The position numbers and the translations under genes were made by a program. DNA of 14,155 bases, taken from NCBI GenBank assembly GCA_025774615.1, contig JALGVQ010000069.1:1-14155 (forward strand), in the 5' to 3' direction. Shown piece after piece: positions 8,082-14,155 of the stretch; positions within the stretch are counted from its first letter, which is position 1; each line of letters begins with the position of its first letter. The notes under the pieces were generated by a model. It ran no database searches. It worked only from the letters and a program-made list of their open reading frames with translations, and was not told the DNA's origin. Source of the stretch: a bacterium (GTDB lineage Bacteria; Blakebacterota; Blakebacteria; Blakebacterales; Blakebacteraceae).

Positions 8082-8930
8082 TCAACGGATCGGCTCTCTC
8101 TTTTCACGCTTCAGTTTCTCTTTCGCCCGGTGGGAGAGCGGTATCACCAGCAGCTTTCCGGTAAGATCGTTGGTGTCTACATAGACATCCGACTCAAAAA
8201 CGGTGGTGAGATTCACATAGGTGAGCACATCATCGGTCGCTCCCTCAGCGAAGACCCGCCCCTCTTTCAAGAGATAGATACGGTCACAGTATTCCGCCGC
8301 CAGATTCAGGTCGTGCAGGGCGGTAAGCGCGGAGATGCCCTGTTCCGAAGCGAGCTGCCGGACCAGGTCATAGATCTCCACCTGATACCTGATATCGAGG
8401 AAACTCGTGGGTTCATCCAGGAGGATCGCTCCCGGCTCCTGCGCAAGCGCACGGGCAAAGATCACCCGTTGCCGCTCGCCGGAGGAGAGTCGCTGGATGT
8501 TCCTCGACGCCAGGTGTGAAGCGCCGGTCCGCTCAAGAGCCGTCTTTGCGATCTCGACATCCCGCTCTGATTCGAATGCCAGGCCCTTCATGTGCGCGTG
8601 TCGCCCCATGAGCACCACTTCGGTGGCGGTGAAGGGAAGTCCGGTCTCCGTTTCCTGTGGTACGACGGCAACGCTGCGCGCAAGCTCTCGTGGACCGATA
8701 TCCCGCACCTCACGTCCATCGACGGTCACCGATCCCTCATATCCCTTAACTACTCCCGAGATGATCTTCAGCAGGGTCGTCTTGCCCGAACCGTTCGGTC
8801 CTAGAATGCCGACGATCTCACCCGGTTCGACAGTGATAGAGACCGATCGCAGCACCGGCTCGGTTCCGTAGGTGAATGAGGTATCTCCGGTGAGTATCCG
8901 GACACCCCCGGTGGTATCAGGAGAAGGCAT
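8082..8930 (-). CDS. ABC transporter ATPase, FecE/BtuD-type (cobalamin, heme or siderophore import)
   Basis: The 282-residue ATPase that powers the importer formed with the two genes upstream. From ATG 8930: Walker A GPNGSGKTT (44-52), Q-loop VVPQETE (90-96, Q92), the EVVLMGRHAH segment typical of this subfamily (104-113), signature LSSGERQR (148-155), Walker B ILLDEPTS (169-176), D-loop FLD and H-loop H206 in TALHDLNLAAEYCDRI. All catalytic residues are present. The start is moved from the longer open frame (8993) to ATG 8930, because a strong ribosome binding site (AAGGGAAGGG) precedes it and the extra leader merely overlaps the permease gene. It overlaps the permease by 14 bp, so the pair is translationally coupled. 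The C-terminus is unusually basic (HRAKEKLKREKREPIR). The family handles B12, heme and ferric siderophores; motif inspection cannot separate these. Confidence 0.95.
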   Translation of the reverse strand: MPSPDTTGGVRILTGDTSFTYGTEPVLRSVSITVEPGEIVGILGPNGSGKTTLLKIISGVVKGYEGSVTVDGREVRDIGPRELARSVAVVPQETETGLPFTATEVVLMGRHAHMKGLAFESERDVEIAKTALERTGASHLASRNIQRLSSGERQRVIFARALAQEPGAILLDEPTSFLDIRYQVEIYDLVRQLASEQGISALTALHDLNLAAEYCDRIYLLKEGRVFAEGATDDVLTYVNLTTVFESDVYVDTNDLTGKLLVIPLSHRAKEKLKREKREPIR

Positions 8931-9963
8931 AATCCCTTCCCTTGCTCCGCAGCAGGTAGAGGAAGAAGGGTCCCCCCACCAGCGCGGTGACAACGCCTAC
9001 CGGGATCTCGTTCGGTGCCGCCAGAGTTCGCGCCAGCAGGTCGGCCAGCACGAGGAAGACGGCTCCTCCGATGAATCCGGTCGGTATCAGGAGACGGTGA
9101 TCGGGGCCGAGGATGATCCTCAGAAGGTGGGGTACCACGAGGCCGACGAACCCGATCAGCCCCGCAACCGATACGGCCATACCGGTGAGGAGCGAGCCGA
9201 GGAAAAAGGTTCGCCGTTTGATACGCTCAATATCCACACCGACCTGGATCGCGCCCTCCTCTCCCATCGCCATGGCGTTGTAATCCCGCGCCATCGCGAA
9301 GAGGGATATCGCGACCGCCGTTGAGACCAGGGCAAATCCGCCGATGGAGAGATACCCCAGATCGTCAGGCACCTGTCCCATCAGATAGAACACGATCGCG
9401 TGCAGCTGTTCGAGTGAGGCGATGCTCTGGATGAAGAAGATCAGGGCGGCACAGAAGGCGTTGAAGATGACTCCGGTGAGGAGGATCGTATGGACAGTGA
9501 ACCGCCCATCATGTGAGGCGATGCGCTCGATCAGTATCAGGGAGAGCAGCGCGCCGAGGAACGCGAAGCCGGGAACCCCGAACTGGCTCACCAGTCCCGT
9601 GCCTGCTCCAAGTCCCAGCAACAGGGCAGTGACGCCACCCAGACTCGCCCCTCCTGAAACACCGAGGATGTAGGGATCGGCCAGCGGGTTGCGCAGCAGT
9701 GCCTGAAAGACGATACCCGCAACAGTAAGCGCGCCGCCCAGTATCGCGGCAAGCAGCACGCGCGGCAGGCGCACCTCGAAGAGGATCCTCAGAAAGAGGA
9801 GCCGGTCCTCCCCATCGAGACTCTCCCCCAGTCCGAGCAGATTCAGCACGGGCACGCGCACTGCTCCTACGCTCCCGGCCAGAATGAGGCATGCCAGAAG
9901 AACCACCGCCAGGATAGTGGTCCTGGTGAGAACCCGGCCTGATGTCAGGTGTTCATGGGACAT
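8917..9963 (-). CDS. ABC transporter permease, FecCD/BtuC family
   Basis: A 348-residue polytopic inner-membrane subunit, about ten helices, that forms the importer channel as a homodimer. Recognised by family sequence: FLRILFEVRLPRVLLAAILGGALTVAG, FQALLRNPLADPYILGVSGGASLGG, LLTGVIFNAFCAAL, FYLMGQVP, and VAGLIGFVGLVVPHLLRIILGPDHRLLIPTG, which contains the loop contacting the ATPase (GLIGFVGLVVPH). It ends with EIPVGVVTALVGGPFFLYLL. Start ATG 9963 has GGAG five bases upstream; TTG 9981 also keeps the frame open but is less likely. It overlaps the substrate-binding-protein gene by 11 bp and the ATPase gene by 14 bp, so the three genes form one coupled unit. A single permease gene is what BtuCD- and heme-type systems have, whereas FecCD systems have two. 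Confidence 0.95.
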   Translation of the reverse strand: MSHEHLTSGRVLTRTTILAVVLLACLILAGSVGAVRVPVLNLLGLGESLDGEDRLLFLRILFEVRLPRVLLAAILGGALTVAGIVFQALLRNPLADPYILGVSGGASLGGVTALLLGLGAGTGLVSQFGVPGFAFLGALLSLILIERIASHDGRFTVHTILLTGVIFNAFCAALIFFIQSIASLEQLHAIVFYLMGQVPDDLGYLSIGGFALVSTAVAISLFAMARDYNAMAMGEEGAIQVGVDIERIKRRTFFLGSLLTGMAVSVAGLIGFVGLVVPHLLRIILGPDHRLLIPTGFIGGAVFLVLADLLARTLAAPNEIPVGVVTALVGGPFFLYLLRSKGRDYAFS

Positions 9964-10915
9964 GGCGCTCCAGGGGACCAAGTTCGCCTATCGAGACTGT
10001 TCCGAATATCTCGGGGTGGATCATCTTCGCCATCAGCTCGGTCATCTCGGGAAGGCGGGGCCCGGGAATGGTGAGCCGCACCGGATCGACATGATACACC
10101 CTCCCCTGCCTGACAGCGGGAAGGAACGCCCAGCGGGCCCAGTCGCCACCCTTCACCCCCCGAACGGCTCCCAGACGGTTGTCAGAGACATCGATGATCA
10201 CCTCCGGACGACGCTCTATCGCTGATTCCAGCGAAACCATCTGGTATGAACCGAGAGCATCAGAAAAGATATTCACTCCTCCCGCCGCCACCACTATCGC
10301 CTCAAGATGTGATCCCGGACCGGCTACATAGAGCGGGTCGGTTCCTACCACTACCATCACCCGCCGGGATCGCAGGCCTTCGACCCTCGAATGGACCCTC
10401 TCCATCCTCTCCCGGATCCCCGCCACAAGATCCCTGGCCTCTGCCTCCCTGCCCGTAACCTCACCGAGGCTCACTATCGACTCGAGCGTGCCGTCGAATG
10501 TGTCAAGGCGCAGAGCGAGCACCTCCACCCCGAGTTCCCGGAGTCTGTCATGGACAGCCGATCCCGCTTCACTCCAGGCGGTGGCAAACAGATCCACCTT
10601 CAGACTCAGGATCTGTTCGATGTTCGGTGTGTTGTAGTCGCCGATCGCCGGCAGCTCTGTCAGTCTCGGAGGCCATTGCACGAAATCGCCGACCGCCACG
10701 ACCATGTCGAGAGTGTCGAGGTAATGCAGTATCTCTGCGGCAGCAGGCGCCATGGCCGCGATCCGTGGATGAGTCGAAGTCTCAGCCCCGTAGCTCTCCC
10801 CGTCGCCGGAGCCTCTCTGACAGGCGCCGACGAGCAGGGTCAGAAGCAGAAGGGCCGTGATGGTCCGGAGCGCGGATATTCCATGGCGGAGAAGAGGCAT
10901 CATCGAGAGATGCAC
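9953..10915 (-). CDS. periplasmic-binding lipoprotein of a BtuF/FecB-type ABC importer
   Basis: The substrate-capturing component of the importer (periplasmic binding protein, class III fold). About 320 residues. Residues 1-31 form a lipoprotein signal with lipobox VGAC, so C32 is the predicted lipidated residue. The mature part has the two-lobe pattern of the family: RIAAMAPAAAEILHYLDTLDMVVAVGDFVQWP, then IGDYNTPNIEQILSLKVDLFAT, a long linking helix (EARDLVAGIRERMERVHSRVEGL), RVMVVVGTDPLYVAGPGSHLEAIVVAAGGVNIF and SLESAIERRPEVIIDVSDN. The GDYNTPNIEQILSLKVDL element is where BtuF-like proteins have GxxxxPNLExIxALKPDL. Start uncertain: GTG 10915 is used, with ATG 10903 and 10900 possible; none has a strong ribosome binding site. 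It begins 62 bp after the HtrA-like gene. That gap is too short for a cobalamin riboswitch, so a B12 role has no regulatory support here. Substrate could be cobalamin, heme or a siderophore. Confidence 0.92.
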   Translation of the reverse strand: MHLSMMPLLRHGISALRTITALLLLTLLVGACQRGSGDGESYGAETSTHPRIAAMAPAAAEILHYLDTLDMVVAVGDFVQWPPRLTELPAIGDYNTPNIEQILSLKVDLFATAWSEAGSAVHDRLRELGVEVLALRLDTFDGTLESIVSLGEVTGREAEARDLVAGIRERMERVHSRVEGLRSRRVMVVVGTDPLYVAGPGSHLEAIVVAAGGVNIFSDALGSYQMVSLESAIERRPEVIIDVSDNRLGAVRGVKGGDWARWAFLPAVRQGRVYHVDPVRLTIPGPRLPEMTELMAKMIHPEIFGTVSIGELGPLERHVP

Positions 10916-10977: not shown

Positions 10978-12213
10978 TCAGCAGGGAGGACGTTCCGGGG
11001 GTGGGCGATCGGGCAGCGAGGCCTGTTTCAGCTCACTCAATTGACGCTCGATCATCAATATCCGACTGCGTACATCCGATCGTTCCGGGTCGAATCCGGG
11101 CGTGGCGAAGAGCCTGTTCAATTCCTCGAAGATTGTATGGAAGCGGGCGACAACGACCATGTCGAATGTCGGCACCGGCTGTATGAGCGTATCAGTCAGC
11201 TGCTGTGACATGGCCGGTCTGCTCCCCACGATCACCTCCACTTCTACCTCACTGGAATCCCGAACGGCCCTCATGGGCACCACAGTCCCGGGAACAGTGG
11301 CCAGAACCAGATTGCGCAGATGGACCGGGCCACCGAGTACCTGCCCACCATAATGCGTCACCCTGTCACCAGCTCTGAGACCAGCCAGAGCGGCCGGGCT
11401 TCCTTCATCTACGGTCTGCAGGACGATCCTGTCCTGAACATTCTCATCGGAAGATCCACCGATCCAGCCCCACCTCACTCGTCCGAATTCTTCGATCTCT
11501 GCGGCTACCTGAGCGGCGACATCCACCGGGATCGCCACAGCATCACCCCGTCCGCTCGCAGTCATATCAGATATCAGTGAAAGCACCACAATCCCGACGA
11601 GGTCACCGTTCCCGTTCAGTAGTGGAGCCCCGCTGAGTCCCGGATAGATCGGTAATGTCGTCAGAATCAGGTCGGTCGGCAGTACCATCATTATCTCGCC
11701 CTGATGCAGGATGGTCCTGTCCTGAAGAGGGTCGACGAGCAGAACTATGTCTCCTGTCCGGGCAGGAATCTCAGAGGGAGCGGGTGGCTCATTGCTGGTG
11801 ATGAGGTTATTTACCGACAGAAGAGCGAGTTGTGTGAATTCATCCGAACCGAGCAGAGACGCCGGCATCCTTCTCCGGCCGATCTCGACCACTATTGAAT
11901 CTGCATCCAGCACGACACTTCGGGCTGTCAGGACACGATTGGAAACGGCGAACCGTACTCCTGATCCAATGTTGAGGACCTCGAGGGTTGCCGTTGTGCC
12001 CCCGCGCCTGCTGTCTGGTTCTCCGAGCGGAACATTCGAGTAGGCGAGGATCCTTACCGCGCTCTGCTGTCCCTTCGAATGGAGTGCCTCGAGCGGGAGT
12101 GGAACTCTCACAGGATCACTCTGGGCGCTGAGCGATAACGGAGCCGCTGTCATGCTGAGCAGGAGAAGAAACGCGACCGCGACAGGAACCTCAGCTCTGG
12201 GATGGCAGGACAT
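10978..12213 (-). CDS. secreted HtrA/DegP-like PDZ protein, predicted pseudoprotease
   Basis: A 411-residue exported protein with an N-terminal signal peptide (hydrophobic 10-28, cleavage near SLSA-QSD). Residues about 75-240 follow the chymotrypsin-like fold of HtrA: GSG (83-85) and VLTARSVV (94-101), GSDEFTQLALLSV (122-134), and PGLSGAPLLNGNGDLVGIVV (191-210). A PDZ domain covers about 250-332 (GSPAALAGLRAGDRVTHYGG). Compared with active HtrA proteins, the His of TNNHVV is Ser99 and the Asp of TDLAVL is Gln128; only the nucleophile position, Ser194 in GLSGAP, is kept. Protease activity is therefore unlikely. The C-terminal part (about 352-400) is helical, perhaps a short coiled coil, and ends in a Pro-rich tail with a final Cys. 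The gene follows the anti-sigma factor after 18 bp, the relative place of mucD in Pseudomonas and a hint that it works in the same envelope-stress circuit. ATG 12213 has only a weak ribosome binding site. Confidence 0.85.
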   Translation of the reverse strand: MSCHPRAEVPVAVAFLLLLSMTAAPLSLSAQSDPVRVPLPLEALHSKGQQSAVRILAYSNVPLGEPDSRRGGTTATLEVLNIGSGVRFAVSNRVLTARSVVLDADSIVVEIGRRRMPASLLGSDEFTQLALLSVNNLITSNEPPAPSEIPARTGDIVLLVDPLQDRTILHQGEIMMVLPTDLILTTLPIYPGLSGAPLLNGNGDLVGIVVLSLISDMTASGRGDAVAIPVDVAAQVAAEIEEFGRVRWGWIGGSSDENVQDRIVLQTVDEGSPAALAGLRAGDRVTHYGGQVLGGPVHLRNLVLATVPGTVVPMRAVRDSSEVEVEVIVGSRPAMSQQLTDTLIQPVPTFDMVVVARFHTIFEELNRLFATPGFDPERSDVRSRILMIERQLSELKQASLPDRPPPERPPC

Positions 12214-12231: not shown

Positions 12232-12780
12232 CTAGAAACTCACGGCCCTCGCGCCGGGCAGGCGGATGGGTGCATTACTCCTGGTGGAATCGAGCATGGC
12301 TACCTGATCGTCGTATAGACCGGCACCCTGGAATCCTCCTATCTGCGGAGGCAGGATATAGCGCTGAAGCTGGCCCTGATCGACAGCAGAGAGTGTCTCG
12401 AGAGGCGCAGTTGTTTCACCGACGGATGGTGAGACGGCTGCTCCCTGGAATCCGACCATGACCAGGATGATCGCCGCGGCAGCCGCTGAGGCCAGGAACG
12501 GGAACGGCTTCAGCAGCGAGATCGCCTGCTCCTTTCGAGCTTCACGATGAACCGCCCGCTTGATCGACCAGCTCAGTTCCTGGGGCGCATCGATCACGTT
12601 CAGTTTCTTCAGATCGGTCAGAAGAAATGATATGCCCTCCAGACGGTGTCTGCAGGAAACACATTCCTCCAGATGCGTCGCCACATCCCTCTCCAGCGAG
12701 GCGGAGAGTGAATGGTCGAGGTAGGAGGAGAGGACCTCGCTTACCAGACCGCAATACCCCTGTTCATCTCTCGTTCTCAT
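12232..12780 (-). CDS. zinc-type (ZAS) transmembrane anti-sigma factor
   Basis: A 182-residue single-pass protein that should bind and silence the ECF sigma factor encoded just upstream. The cytoplasmic N-terminus has the anti-sigma zinc signature: C10-x25-H36-x3-C40-x2-C43 (HLEECVSC). The spacing is that of the classical H-x25-H-x3-C-x2-C motif with Cys for the first His, a common variant. A transmembrane helix follows at about 93-112 (FLASAAAAAIILVMVGF), leaving a periplasmic tail of about 70 residues that is low in charge and shows no known domain. The last residues are ARAVSF, a hydrophobic carboxyl terminus of the kind PDZ domains bind. Start ATG 12780 has GGGAAG close upstream; the frame extends to TTG 12792. 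It overlaps the sigma gene by 17 bp, which supports coupled, balanced production. Release would presumably need cleavage or a signal on the periplasmic side, by analogy with RseA and MucA. Confidence 0.92.
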   Translation of the reverse strand: MRTRDEQGYCGLVSEVLSSYLDHSLSASLERDVATHLEECVSCRHRLEGISFLLTDLKKLNVIDAPQELSWSIKRAVHREARKEQAISLLKPFPFLASAAAAAIILVMVGFQGAAVSPSVGETTAPLETLSAVDQGQLQRYILPPQIGGFQGAGLYDDQVAMLDSTRSNAPIRLPGARAVSF

Positions 12781-13381
12781 ACCACTTCCCAAGCTTCTCC
12801 TGGAGGATCAGACGTCCCCGGTTCAACCGTGATTTTACTGTACCGACCGGTATCTGAACAATACCAGCAATCTCTTCATAGCTCATTTCCTGGATGTCCC
12901 GCAAGATCACAACCTGTCGGTACCGTTCAGGGAGCTTTGCCACCTCATCGATGAGTTCGGCGGCGGCCAGACGGTTCTCCACCACCTGGTCGGGGATGGC
13001 GCTCTCGTCAGGCAGGTCGTAATCGGGCTCATCATCGTTGTTGGAAGGCCCGATCCTGAGCATGCGCCACCGTTTGCGGCGGCGCCACTCACTACGTGCC
13101 AGATTTCCGGCTATCGTATAGATCCAGGTGGAGAAGGAGGCGATGTTCCTGAATTCACCGCGCTTCTTCCAGACTCGCAGGAAGGTCTCCTGAAGCAGGT
13201 CCTCCGCCATGTCCGAGTCCTTCAGGAACCGGTAGAGGTACCCGTAGATCCGGTCGTAGTAGCGATCCACGAGCAGATCGAAGGCGACCAGGTTCCCATC
13301 CAGACTGCTGGAAAGGAGCGCCTCATCTGACATCAGCGGGAGTTCCGCCTGTTCCAGATCCTGTTTCGTCAATACGGGCAT
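12764..13381 (-). CDS. ECF (group 4) RNA polymerase sigma factor, RpoE-like
   Basis: A 205-residue sigma factor that should direct RNA polymerase to stress promoters. Region 2 (about 29-100) carries AFDLLVDRYYDRIYGYLYRFL, DMAEDLLQETFLRVWKKR (58-75) and FSTWIYTIAGNLARSEWRRRKR (region 2.3-2.4). An acidic linker (NNDDEPDYDLPDES, 114-127) joins it to region 4 (about 140-195): LPERYRQVVILRDIQEMSYEEIA and the DNA-recognition helix PVGTVKSRLNRGRLIL. No N-terminal region 1 or C-terminal extension is present, as usual for ECF factors. Start ATG 13381 has a distant AAGG; ATG 13333 is a weaker alternative that would trim the leader. It overlaps lnt by 13 bp and the anti-sigma gene by 17 bp. I looked for an RpoE-type GGAACTT...TCTGA element in the visible part of lnt and found none, so autoregulation is not shown. 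Confidence 0.96.
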   Translation of the reverse strand: MPVLTKQDLEQAELPLMSDEALLSSSLDGNLVAFDLLVDRYYDRIYGYLYRFLKDSDMAEDLLQETFLRVWKKRGEFRNIASFSTWIYTIAGNLARSEWRRRKRWRMLRIGPSNNDDEPDYDLPDESAIPDQVVENRLAAAELIDEVAKLPERYRQVVILRDIQEMSYEEIAGIVQIPVGTVKSRLNRGRLILQEKLGKWYENER

Positions 13382-14155
13382 GTGTCTCGTAACCTTATGA
13401 ACAGGCCTGACAGACCGACGATGAGTGCCAGCAGGGGCACCCAGTCCCCGGTGCTCGCGTACGGTGTCATTCCCGTCTCAGGCCATACTCGCGCCAGTAT
13501 CGCATCCTTCCGGTAAAGCGGGGTAGCGTGATGGATCCTGCCCCATCGGTCAATGACGGCCGAGATGCCGCTATTCGCCGCCCGGATCACCGGTCTGCGG
13601 AACTCTACTGCCCGTAGAGCTGCGATCCTCAGATGCTGATATGGTCCGGCTGTCTTCCCGAACCAGGCGTCATTGGTGATGACGCTCAGGACCCGGGCGC
13701 CGTTGACGACCTCCGGTCTGACAAGTCGGGTGAACGCGCTTTCATAACAGATCAGCATGCCGATCGGAGGCACGCCTGGAGTGTTTTCCTTCCCGCCGAG
13801 AAGCGGCGCTCCCTCCCCCATCGAGAAATCGGACCAGCCCATGCTCCAGTCGCGCATGAAGCTGAATATCTGCTGATAGGGGACCCGCTCTCCGAATGGT
13901 ACGAGCAGTCGCTTGTTGTAGATCTCTTCACCCTGCGAAACACCATCACCAGTGACCATCATCGCCGAGTTGAAGTACCTGGAGGGCTGCTCCCCCCGAG
14001 TGGCGGAGAAGGCTCCCGTCAAGATCGGCAGACCCAGGTCCTTCTGCAGGCCGGTTGCAAACCGGTGTGCCCGAAGAGAGAAGTTCAGGTACTGCGGTAT
14101 CGCCGTTTCAGGCCACACAACGAGTTCCAGCCCCTCGCCGGCCCGGGCAACAGCC
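13369..14155 (-). CDS. lnt: apolipoprotein N-acyltransferase Lnt, C-terminal half (partial at window edge)
   Basis: Lnt adds the third acyl chain to lipoproteins at the outer face of the inner membrane. About 261 residues are visible; the frame continues past base 14155, so the N-terminal transmembrane part is outside. The nitrilase-like domain shows its catalytic triad: Glu in VVWPETAIP (codon 14109-14107), Lys in YNKRLLVPFGE (13914-13912) and Cys in MLICYES (13749-13747). The spacings (65 and 55 residues) are close to those of E. coli Lnt (E267, K335, C387). Further family sequence: YFNSAMMV, GVPPIGMLICYESAF, SVITNDAWFG, HLRIAALRAVEFRRPVIRAANSGISAVID. The last helix is PLLALIVGLSGLFIRL. It is the first visible gene of a leftward operon and overlaps the sigma-factor gene by 13 bp. 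The window also encodes two lipoproteins that would be substrates. Confidence 0.96.
   Translation of the reverse strand, partial: AVARAGEGLELVVWPETAIPQYLNFSLRAHRFATGLQKDLGLPILTGAFSATRGEQPSRYFNSAMMVTGDGVSQGEEIYNKRLLVPFGERVPYQQIFSFMRDWSMGWSDFSMGEGAPLLGGKENTPGVPPIGMLICYESAFTRLVRPEVVNGARVLSVITNDAWFGKTAGPYQHLRIAALRAVEFRRPVIRAANSGISAVIDRWGRIHHATPLYRKDAILARVWPETGMTPYASTGDWVPLLALIVGLSGLFIRLRDTCPY

Follow-up and report, generated by a model that had tools for sequence, protein, structure and literature searches.

One gene in the window (the whole 14,155-nucleotide stretch of DNA that we analyzed) raised two questions: whether the HtrA-like PDZ protein that it encoded was still a protease and, if it was not, what such a protein might do behind the genes for a sigma factor and an anti-sigma factor. 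The original prediction, made from the sequence of the locus, was that the protein had lost its catalytic His and Asp through selection and not decay, and that it acted only by binding. We refer to this protein as pseudo-HtrA.

Domains and gene order at the locus

The features of the locus are listed in Table 1. In Pfam, pseudo-HtrA matched Trypsin_2 (53 bits) and PDZ_2/PDZ_6, all above cut-off; in NCBIfam, its best models were DegP and DegS, both far under their cut-offs. The fold landmarks, the PDZ domain and the clean frame that had been predicted were all recovered, as Trypsin_2 and PDZ matches over cut-off, an HtrA fold in the structural model and an uninterrupted 411-aa ORF. The signal-peptide-like segment at the N-terminus suggested that pseudo-HtrA is exported.

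The predicted placement after a sigma/anti-sigma pair was borne out by the domains found upstream. The first gene encoded an ECF sigma factor with Sigma70_r2 (72.6 bits) and Sigma70_r4_2 (63.3 bits) domains, and the second encoded an anti-sigma factor with a zf-HC2 domain (26.3 bits; cut-off 22.2) and one predicted transmembrane (TM) segment. The anti-sigma and pseudo-HtrA genes directly adjoined, and we found no MucB/RseB-like gene in the window operon. The next gene past pseudo-HtrA encoded a Peripla_BP_2 protein.

Table 1. Coordinates in the window of the pseudo-HtrA gene, its partner genes and their parts
Feature	Coordinates	Strand	Basis or remark
Pseudo-HtrA ORF, 411 aa, HtrA-like, triad S99/Q128/S194 degenerate	10978..12213	-	Open, clean frame
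Signal-peptide-like hydrophobic N-terminus, residues 1-30	12124..12213	-	Hydropathy 2.0 at residues 11-29
Trypsin-like (Trypsin_2) domain, residues ~78-245	11479..11982	-	Pfam and model
Ser99 codon, catalytic His position	11917..11919	-	Alignment
Gln128 codon, catalytic Asp position	11830..11832	-	Alignment
Ser194 codon, nucleophile position	11632..11634	-	Kept here, lost in most relatives
PDZ domain, residues ~246-335	11209..11478	-	Pfam, conservation, model
Two C-terminal helices, residues 352-399	11017..11160	-	Predicted by model; partly conserved
ECF sigma factor, 205 aa, in the clade accompanying pseudo-HtrA genes	12764..13381	-	Pfam, tree
Anti-sigma factor, 186 aa, zf-HC2 zinc-finger N-terminus	12232..12792	-	Pfam, hydropathy
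Anti-sigma single TM segment, predicted	12448..12504	-	Hydropathy
Anti-sigma tail GARAVSF-COOH, putative PDZ ligand	12235..12255	-	Tail comparison

Loss of the catalytic triad

When pseudo-HtrA was aligned to solved DegP, DegQ and DegS chains, LTARSVV sat on LTNNHVV and TQLALL sat on TDLAVL, which placed Ser99 and Gln128 at the positions of the catalytic His and Asp, respectively. The catalytic Ser was kept as Ser194, with GLSGAP on GNSGGP, and all three residue numbers agreed with those given in the original prediction. Hence, the protein had the trypsin-like domain, the PDZ domain and the fold that mark the HtrA family, and it lacked the His-Asp-Ser triad that marks an HtrA enzyme (Ser99, Gln128 and Ser194).

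The window's phylum was represented by four genomes, which were the same four at the family, order, class and phylum levels. In these genomes, the His position was occupied by S, N, T and A and the Asp position by Q, H, G and G. Triad residues that vary while the fold landmarks stay look like the pattern of lost catalysis without lost function.

A family of degenerate HtrAs behind sigma/anti-sigma pairs

In all four genomes of the window's phylum, the gene lay behind genes for the same ECF sigma factor and zf-HC2 anti-sigma factor. A broad search of 386 genomes, nearly all outside this phylum, matched mostly ordinary HtrAs, and its three long matches (in genomes G196, G147 and G322) were all degenerate and lay behind the same sigma/anti-sigma pair. 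The search was then extended to the phyla to which two of these three genomes belong (82 genomes in one and 64 in the other), and the broad sample was searched again with an improved profile. The resulting operonic set held 85 distinct HtrA-like genes directly behind a pair of genes for an ECF sigma factor and a zinc-finger anti-sigma factor, with one MucB-type locus, L073, left out.

Besides the window's own phylum, those of G322 and G147 contained members of the family, as did genomes that appear in none of these three listings (among them G060, G104, G137, G139, G196 and G251), so the family spans at least four phyla, and the place behind the sigma/anti-sigma pair was conserved across them. 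The stand-alone HtrAs, which had no sigma pair upstream, included 74 with an intact triad, three of them read as two aligned pieces. Four degenerate HtrAs (L084, L204, L236 and L249) had no visible sigma pair; each lay so close to the end of its contig that the genes upstream were missing. A related-locus search yielded one distant active HtrA in genome contigs and three HtrAs in viral contigs. This gene order showed that a catalytically degenerate HtrA is the constant third member of a module with an ECF sigma factor and its anti-sigma factor, and the module goes beyond this genome: it is a whole family and not a one-off.

Loss of the triad was itself conserved in the operonic set, although the exact residues varied. 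The catalytic His was missing from all 85 copies, with Ser at that position in 52 and R, A, T, G, N, K, C, P, D or F in the others. Another residue, most commonly Gly, stood in place of the catalytic Asp in 74 of 85 copies, and the catalytic Ser was replaced in 68 of 84 (L073 subtracted). A homologue with an intact triad, which would have spoken against the original prediction, was found in 0 of the 85. The fact that triad loss was fixed in the whole family excluded chance and sequencing error as its source.

We also looked for a residue that might stand in for the catalytic His. Because the structural model was too coarse to judge active-site geometry, the lack of a conserved candidate His was used in its place. 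The wider family had no conserved stand-in: the only column with more than 25% His was residue 93, which was His in 28 family sequences and mostly Tyr or Phe in the rest. Within the window's phylum, His170 was invariant in all three sequences of full length, and we rejected it as a relocated catalytic His given its lack of conservation in the wider family. The neighbours of the oxyanion hole were degraded in the family as well. Judged from these alignments, the window protein is very probably catalytically dead and the name serine protease wrong for it. This corrects the annotation of these genes, which match trypsin-like peptidase models and would otherwise be named serine proteases.

Selection and phylogeny

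The claim that the loss was selected held up. The dN/dS of pseudo-HtrA was 0.17-0.18 (Nei-Gojobori, against copies of 66% and 53% identity), compared with 0.08 for the sigma factor and 0.18-0.28 for the anti-sigma factor; these ratios are approximate because synonymous sites were near saturation in the more distant pair. A dN/dS of about 0.17, the open frames and an operon position conserved across phyla all pointed to selection and not decay.

In a tree of 45 pseudo-HtrAs and 41 active HtrAs, a single branch parted the two groups (SH-aLRT 99). The partner sigma factors (42 sequences) likewise parted from 34 other ECF sigma factors (SH-aLRT 97), almost all of which came from the phylum of G322. 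Both trees were quick builds with long branches, so a single origin of the pseudoproteases and of their partner sigma factors is favoured and not proved.

Constraint had relaxed unevenly along the protein. Mean conservation fell from 2.99 bits in the protease domain of active HtrAs to 1.97 bits in the pseudo-HtrA family, and from 2.31 to 1.83 bits in the PDZ domain. It was mostly gone around the active site, at positions 97, 99, 128, 186, 190, 193, 194 and 196 (window numbering), and the PDZ loop G-W-[LI]-G was as conserved as in active HtrAs. In pseudo-HtrA, this loop, which is of the carboxylate-binding type, reads G249 W250 I251 G252.

Structural model

A single-sequence AlphaFold2 model of pseudo-HtrA had a pLDDT of 32. 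With a five-row alignment (the window protein and four homologues), the pLDDT rose to 63 overall, with mostly 79-93 in the PDZ domain and a fair protease core. This model had the expected HtrA fold, which confirmed the original prediction at the level of fold only. Its best structural match was DegS (Z 27.5, 277 residues aligned, rmsd 3.2), and the three top matches among solved structures were DegS chains with YQF- or YRF-type peptides (Z 27.1-27.5). The intact PDZ loop, these peptide-bound matches and the anti-sigma tails described below suggest that the PDZ domain may work like a DegS-type reader of C-terminal signals.

An aromatic tail on the partner anti-sigma factors

The partner anti-sigma factors had one predicted TM segment followed by a median of 90 residues. 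In 83 of 85 operons they ended in Phe or Tyr, residue -3 was Val or Ile in 58 of 85, and the tail was usually V/I-x-F. Information content was 3.5 bits at the last residue and 1.8 bits at -3, compared with 0.5-0.8 bits at -16 to -6. Two anti-sigma factors broke the rule: L200 (G060) ended in TVTFSP, with the motif two residues before the end, and L210 (G041) ended in TAGGL. The controls were zf-HC2 proteins without an HtrA-like neighbour, 38 in all and taken from the phylum of G322, and three of these had an aromatic last residue (Fisher p ~8e-25 for 83/85 versus 3/38, with related sequences counted as independent).

The PDZ domain of DegS binds YxF and that of AlgW binds WVF (PMC8545111). Position -3 of the anti-sigma tail is mostly V/I, unlike the Tyr of the DegS signal. 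In the window's genome, all seven Omp85-family barrels that were read ended in F or Y (GFRF, GHLF, GQIF, GMKF, GPEF, MYAF and AQFY). Based on the DegS and AlgW ligand types and on these seven barrel ends, the tail, [V/I]-x-[F/Y], resembles the C-terminal signal of outer membrane proteins (OMPs). This aromatic tail, which was absent from the original account of the locus, is a likely ligand of pseudo-HtrA.

Possible roles of pseudo-HtrA

The results lent support to the idea that pseudo-HtrA is a binding-only part, although action by binding is itself inferred. The reading that we hold to be somewhat better than an even bet is that an exported, predicted dead HtrA docks the anti-sigma tail with its PDZ domain and that the tails of unassembled OMPs compete for it. 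According to this reading, docking in the periplasm would hold or shield the anti-sigma factor, and the sigma factor would be off. During envelope stress, unassembled OMPs, which have aromatic C-termini of the same kind, would compete for the PDZ pocket. The released anti-sigma factor would then be cut by separate enzymes, a DegS-type active HtrA and RseP, and the sigma factor would be freed. The sequence-level prediction of the model centres on the last three residues of the anti-sigma factor. The least certain step of the model is the sign of the effect, because pseudo-HtrA may either shield the anti-sigma factor or present it.

RseP was encoded in all four genomes of the window's phylum, and a one-PDZ, intact-triad HtrA with an N-terminal hydrophobic anchor was present in G000 and G003. 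The window's genome had intact HtrAs of 575 aa (L018 2030-3754) and 449 aa (L020 1467-2813), the latter with one PDZ domain and a DegS-like N-terminal anchor.

More tentatively, the module may be a widespread envelope-stress switch that has the dead HtrA as its sensor, in which an OMP-mimicking anti-sigma tail is displaced by unassembled OMPs and sensing is uncoupled from cutting. In the sigma-E paradigm, one HtrA both senses and cuts. If the proposal is true, sensing would occur by competitive binding, apart from the cutting enzyme, and the operon clade would have kept the apparent sensing half and shed the cutting half over several phyla.

An unlikely alternative, and the one that fared best, is that the pseudoprotease promotes sigma activation, either as an adaptor that presents the anti-sigma factor to an active HtrA or as an allosteric activator. 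MamO, a dead HtrA, activates MamE-dependent proteolysis in this way (PMC4794232), active HtrAs coexist in the genome, and the anti-sigma tail fits either sign. However, the active HtrAs are encoded elsewhere in the genome, and we saw no pairing of pseudo-HtrA with a particular one of them. The present data fit shielding and presenting alike.

It is also rather improbable that the tail is read by the PDZ domain of a separate, active DegS-like protease and that pseudo-HtrA is otherwise employed, for example as a periplasmic OMP chaperone in the regulon. HtrAs can act as chaperones, and active one-PDZ HtrAs exist in these genomes. Against this, the control anti-sigma factors were nearly all tail-less even though genomes of the same phylum carry active HtrAs, which indicated that the tail goes with the pseudo-HtrA gene, and this gene stays behind the pair across phyla.

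The Ser194 kept in GLSGAP might hint that the protein still cuts, by way of an unorthodox catalytic site, but most of the clade has lost this Ser, none of the alignment columns is a conserved His and the oxyanion-hole neighbours were gone, so we regard this as very unlikely. The source genome was fragmented (82% completeness), which might favour a pseudogene in decay or an error of assembly or sequencing, but the open frames, the dN/dS of 0.17 and the operon position conserved across phyla leave that explanation next to no credence.

Relation to known systems

The preferred reading, with a PDZ domain that docks the anti-sigma tail, has its closest parallels in the DegS/RseA/RseB/RseP sigma-E pathway of E. 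coli and the AlgW/MucA/MucB pathway of Pseudomonas. The shared elements were an ECF sigma factor, a membrane anti-sigma factor, a predicted exported HtrA with a PDZ domain and a DegS fold, an aromatic type of C-terminal signal and RseP in the genome. In contrast to those pathways, the operon-encoded HtrA is predicted to be dead here, the aromatic signal is found on the anti-sigma factor itself as well as on OMPs, and the operon has no RseB-like gene. On this comparison, pseudo-HtrA would work most like DegS/AlgW sensing, yet it lacks the triad by which the protease family is defined.

The position of the gene resembles that of mucD in algU-mucA-mucB-mucC-mucD, where an HtrA-like gene also lies downstream of a sigma/anti-sigma pair, but MucD is proteolytically active, and L073, an operon of the MucB type, encodes an HtrA that has an intact triad and grouped with the active HtrAs. 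We rejected the idea that pseudo-HtrA is a degenerate MucD or a MucD orthologue, given the separate clade (SH-aLRT 99), the lack of any intact triad and the absence of a mucB (RseB-like) gene.

The closest precedent for a bacterial HtrA that is dead and still functional is MamO, a magnetosome pseudoprotease derived from HtrA, with a degenerate active site and a noncatalytic role; its di-histidine motif binds metal, and it activates MamE (PMC4794232). Unlike MamO, the family described here is tied to a sigma/anti-sigma pair. A scan of conservation by column across the family, made independently of the positions of the surface di-histidine site of MamO, revealed no conserved His pair (only column 93 exceeded 25% His).

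The partner anti-sigma factors were like other zf-HC2 anti-sigma factors in their zinc-finger N-terminus, single TM segment and upstream sigma gene, and they differed in the aromatic tail, which was absent in 35 of the 38 zf-HC2 proteins sampled. We found no description of an HtrA pseudoprotease in a sigma/anti-sigma operon in the literature searched, which was mostly open access and did not include the NAR 2021 ECF re-classification; the module is apparently new to the literature, though this is not proven.

On either side of the window operon were lnt (apolipoprotein N-acyltransferase; 13369-14118, minus strand), upstream and overlapping the start of the sigma gene, and a BtuF/BtuC/BtuD-like uptake system (8082-10915, minus strand), downstream. 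At the loci that we read in other phyla, the operon had different flanking genes. The operon at L073 302-4068 (G238) contrasts naturally with the pseudo-HtrA module; it encoded a sigma factor, an anti-sigma factor, a MucB/RseB-like protein and an intact HtrA, and the anti-sigma factor at that locus ended in KAHFLQ.
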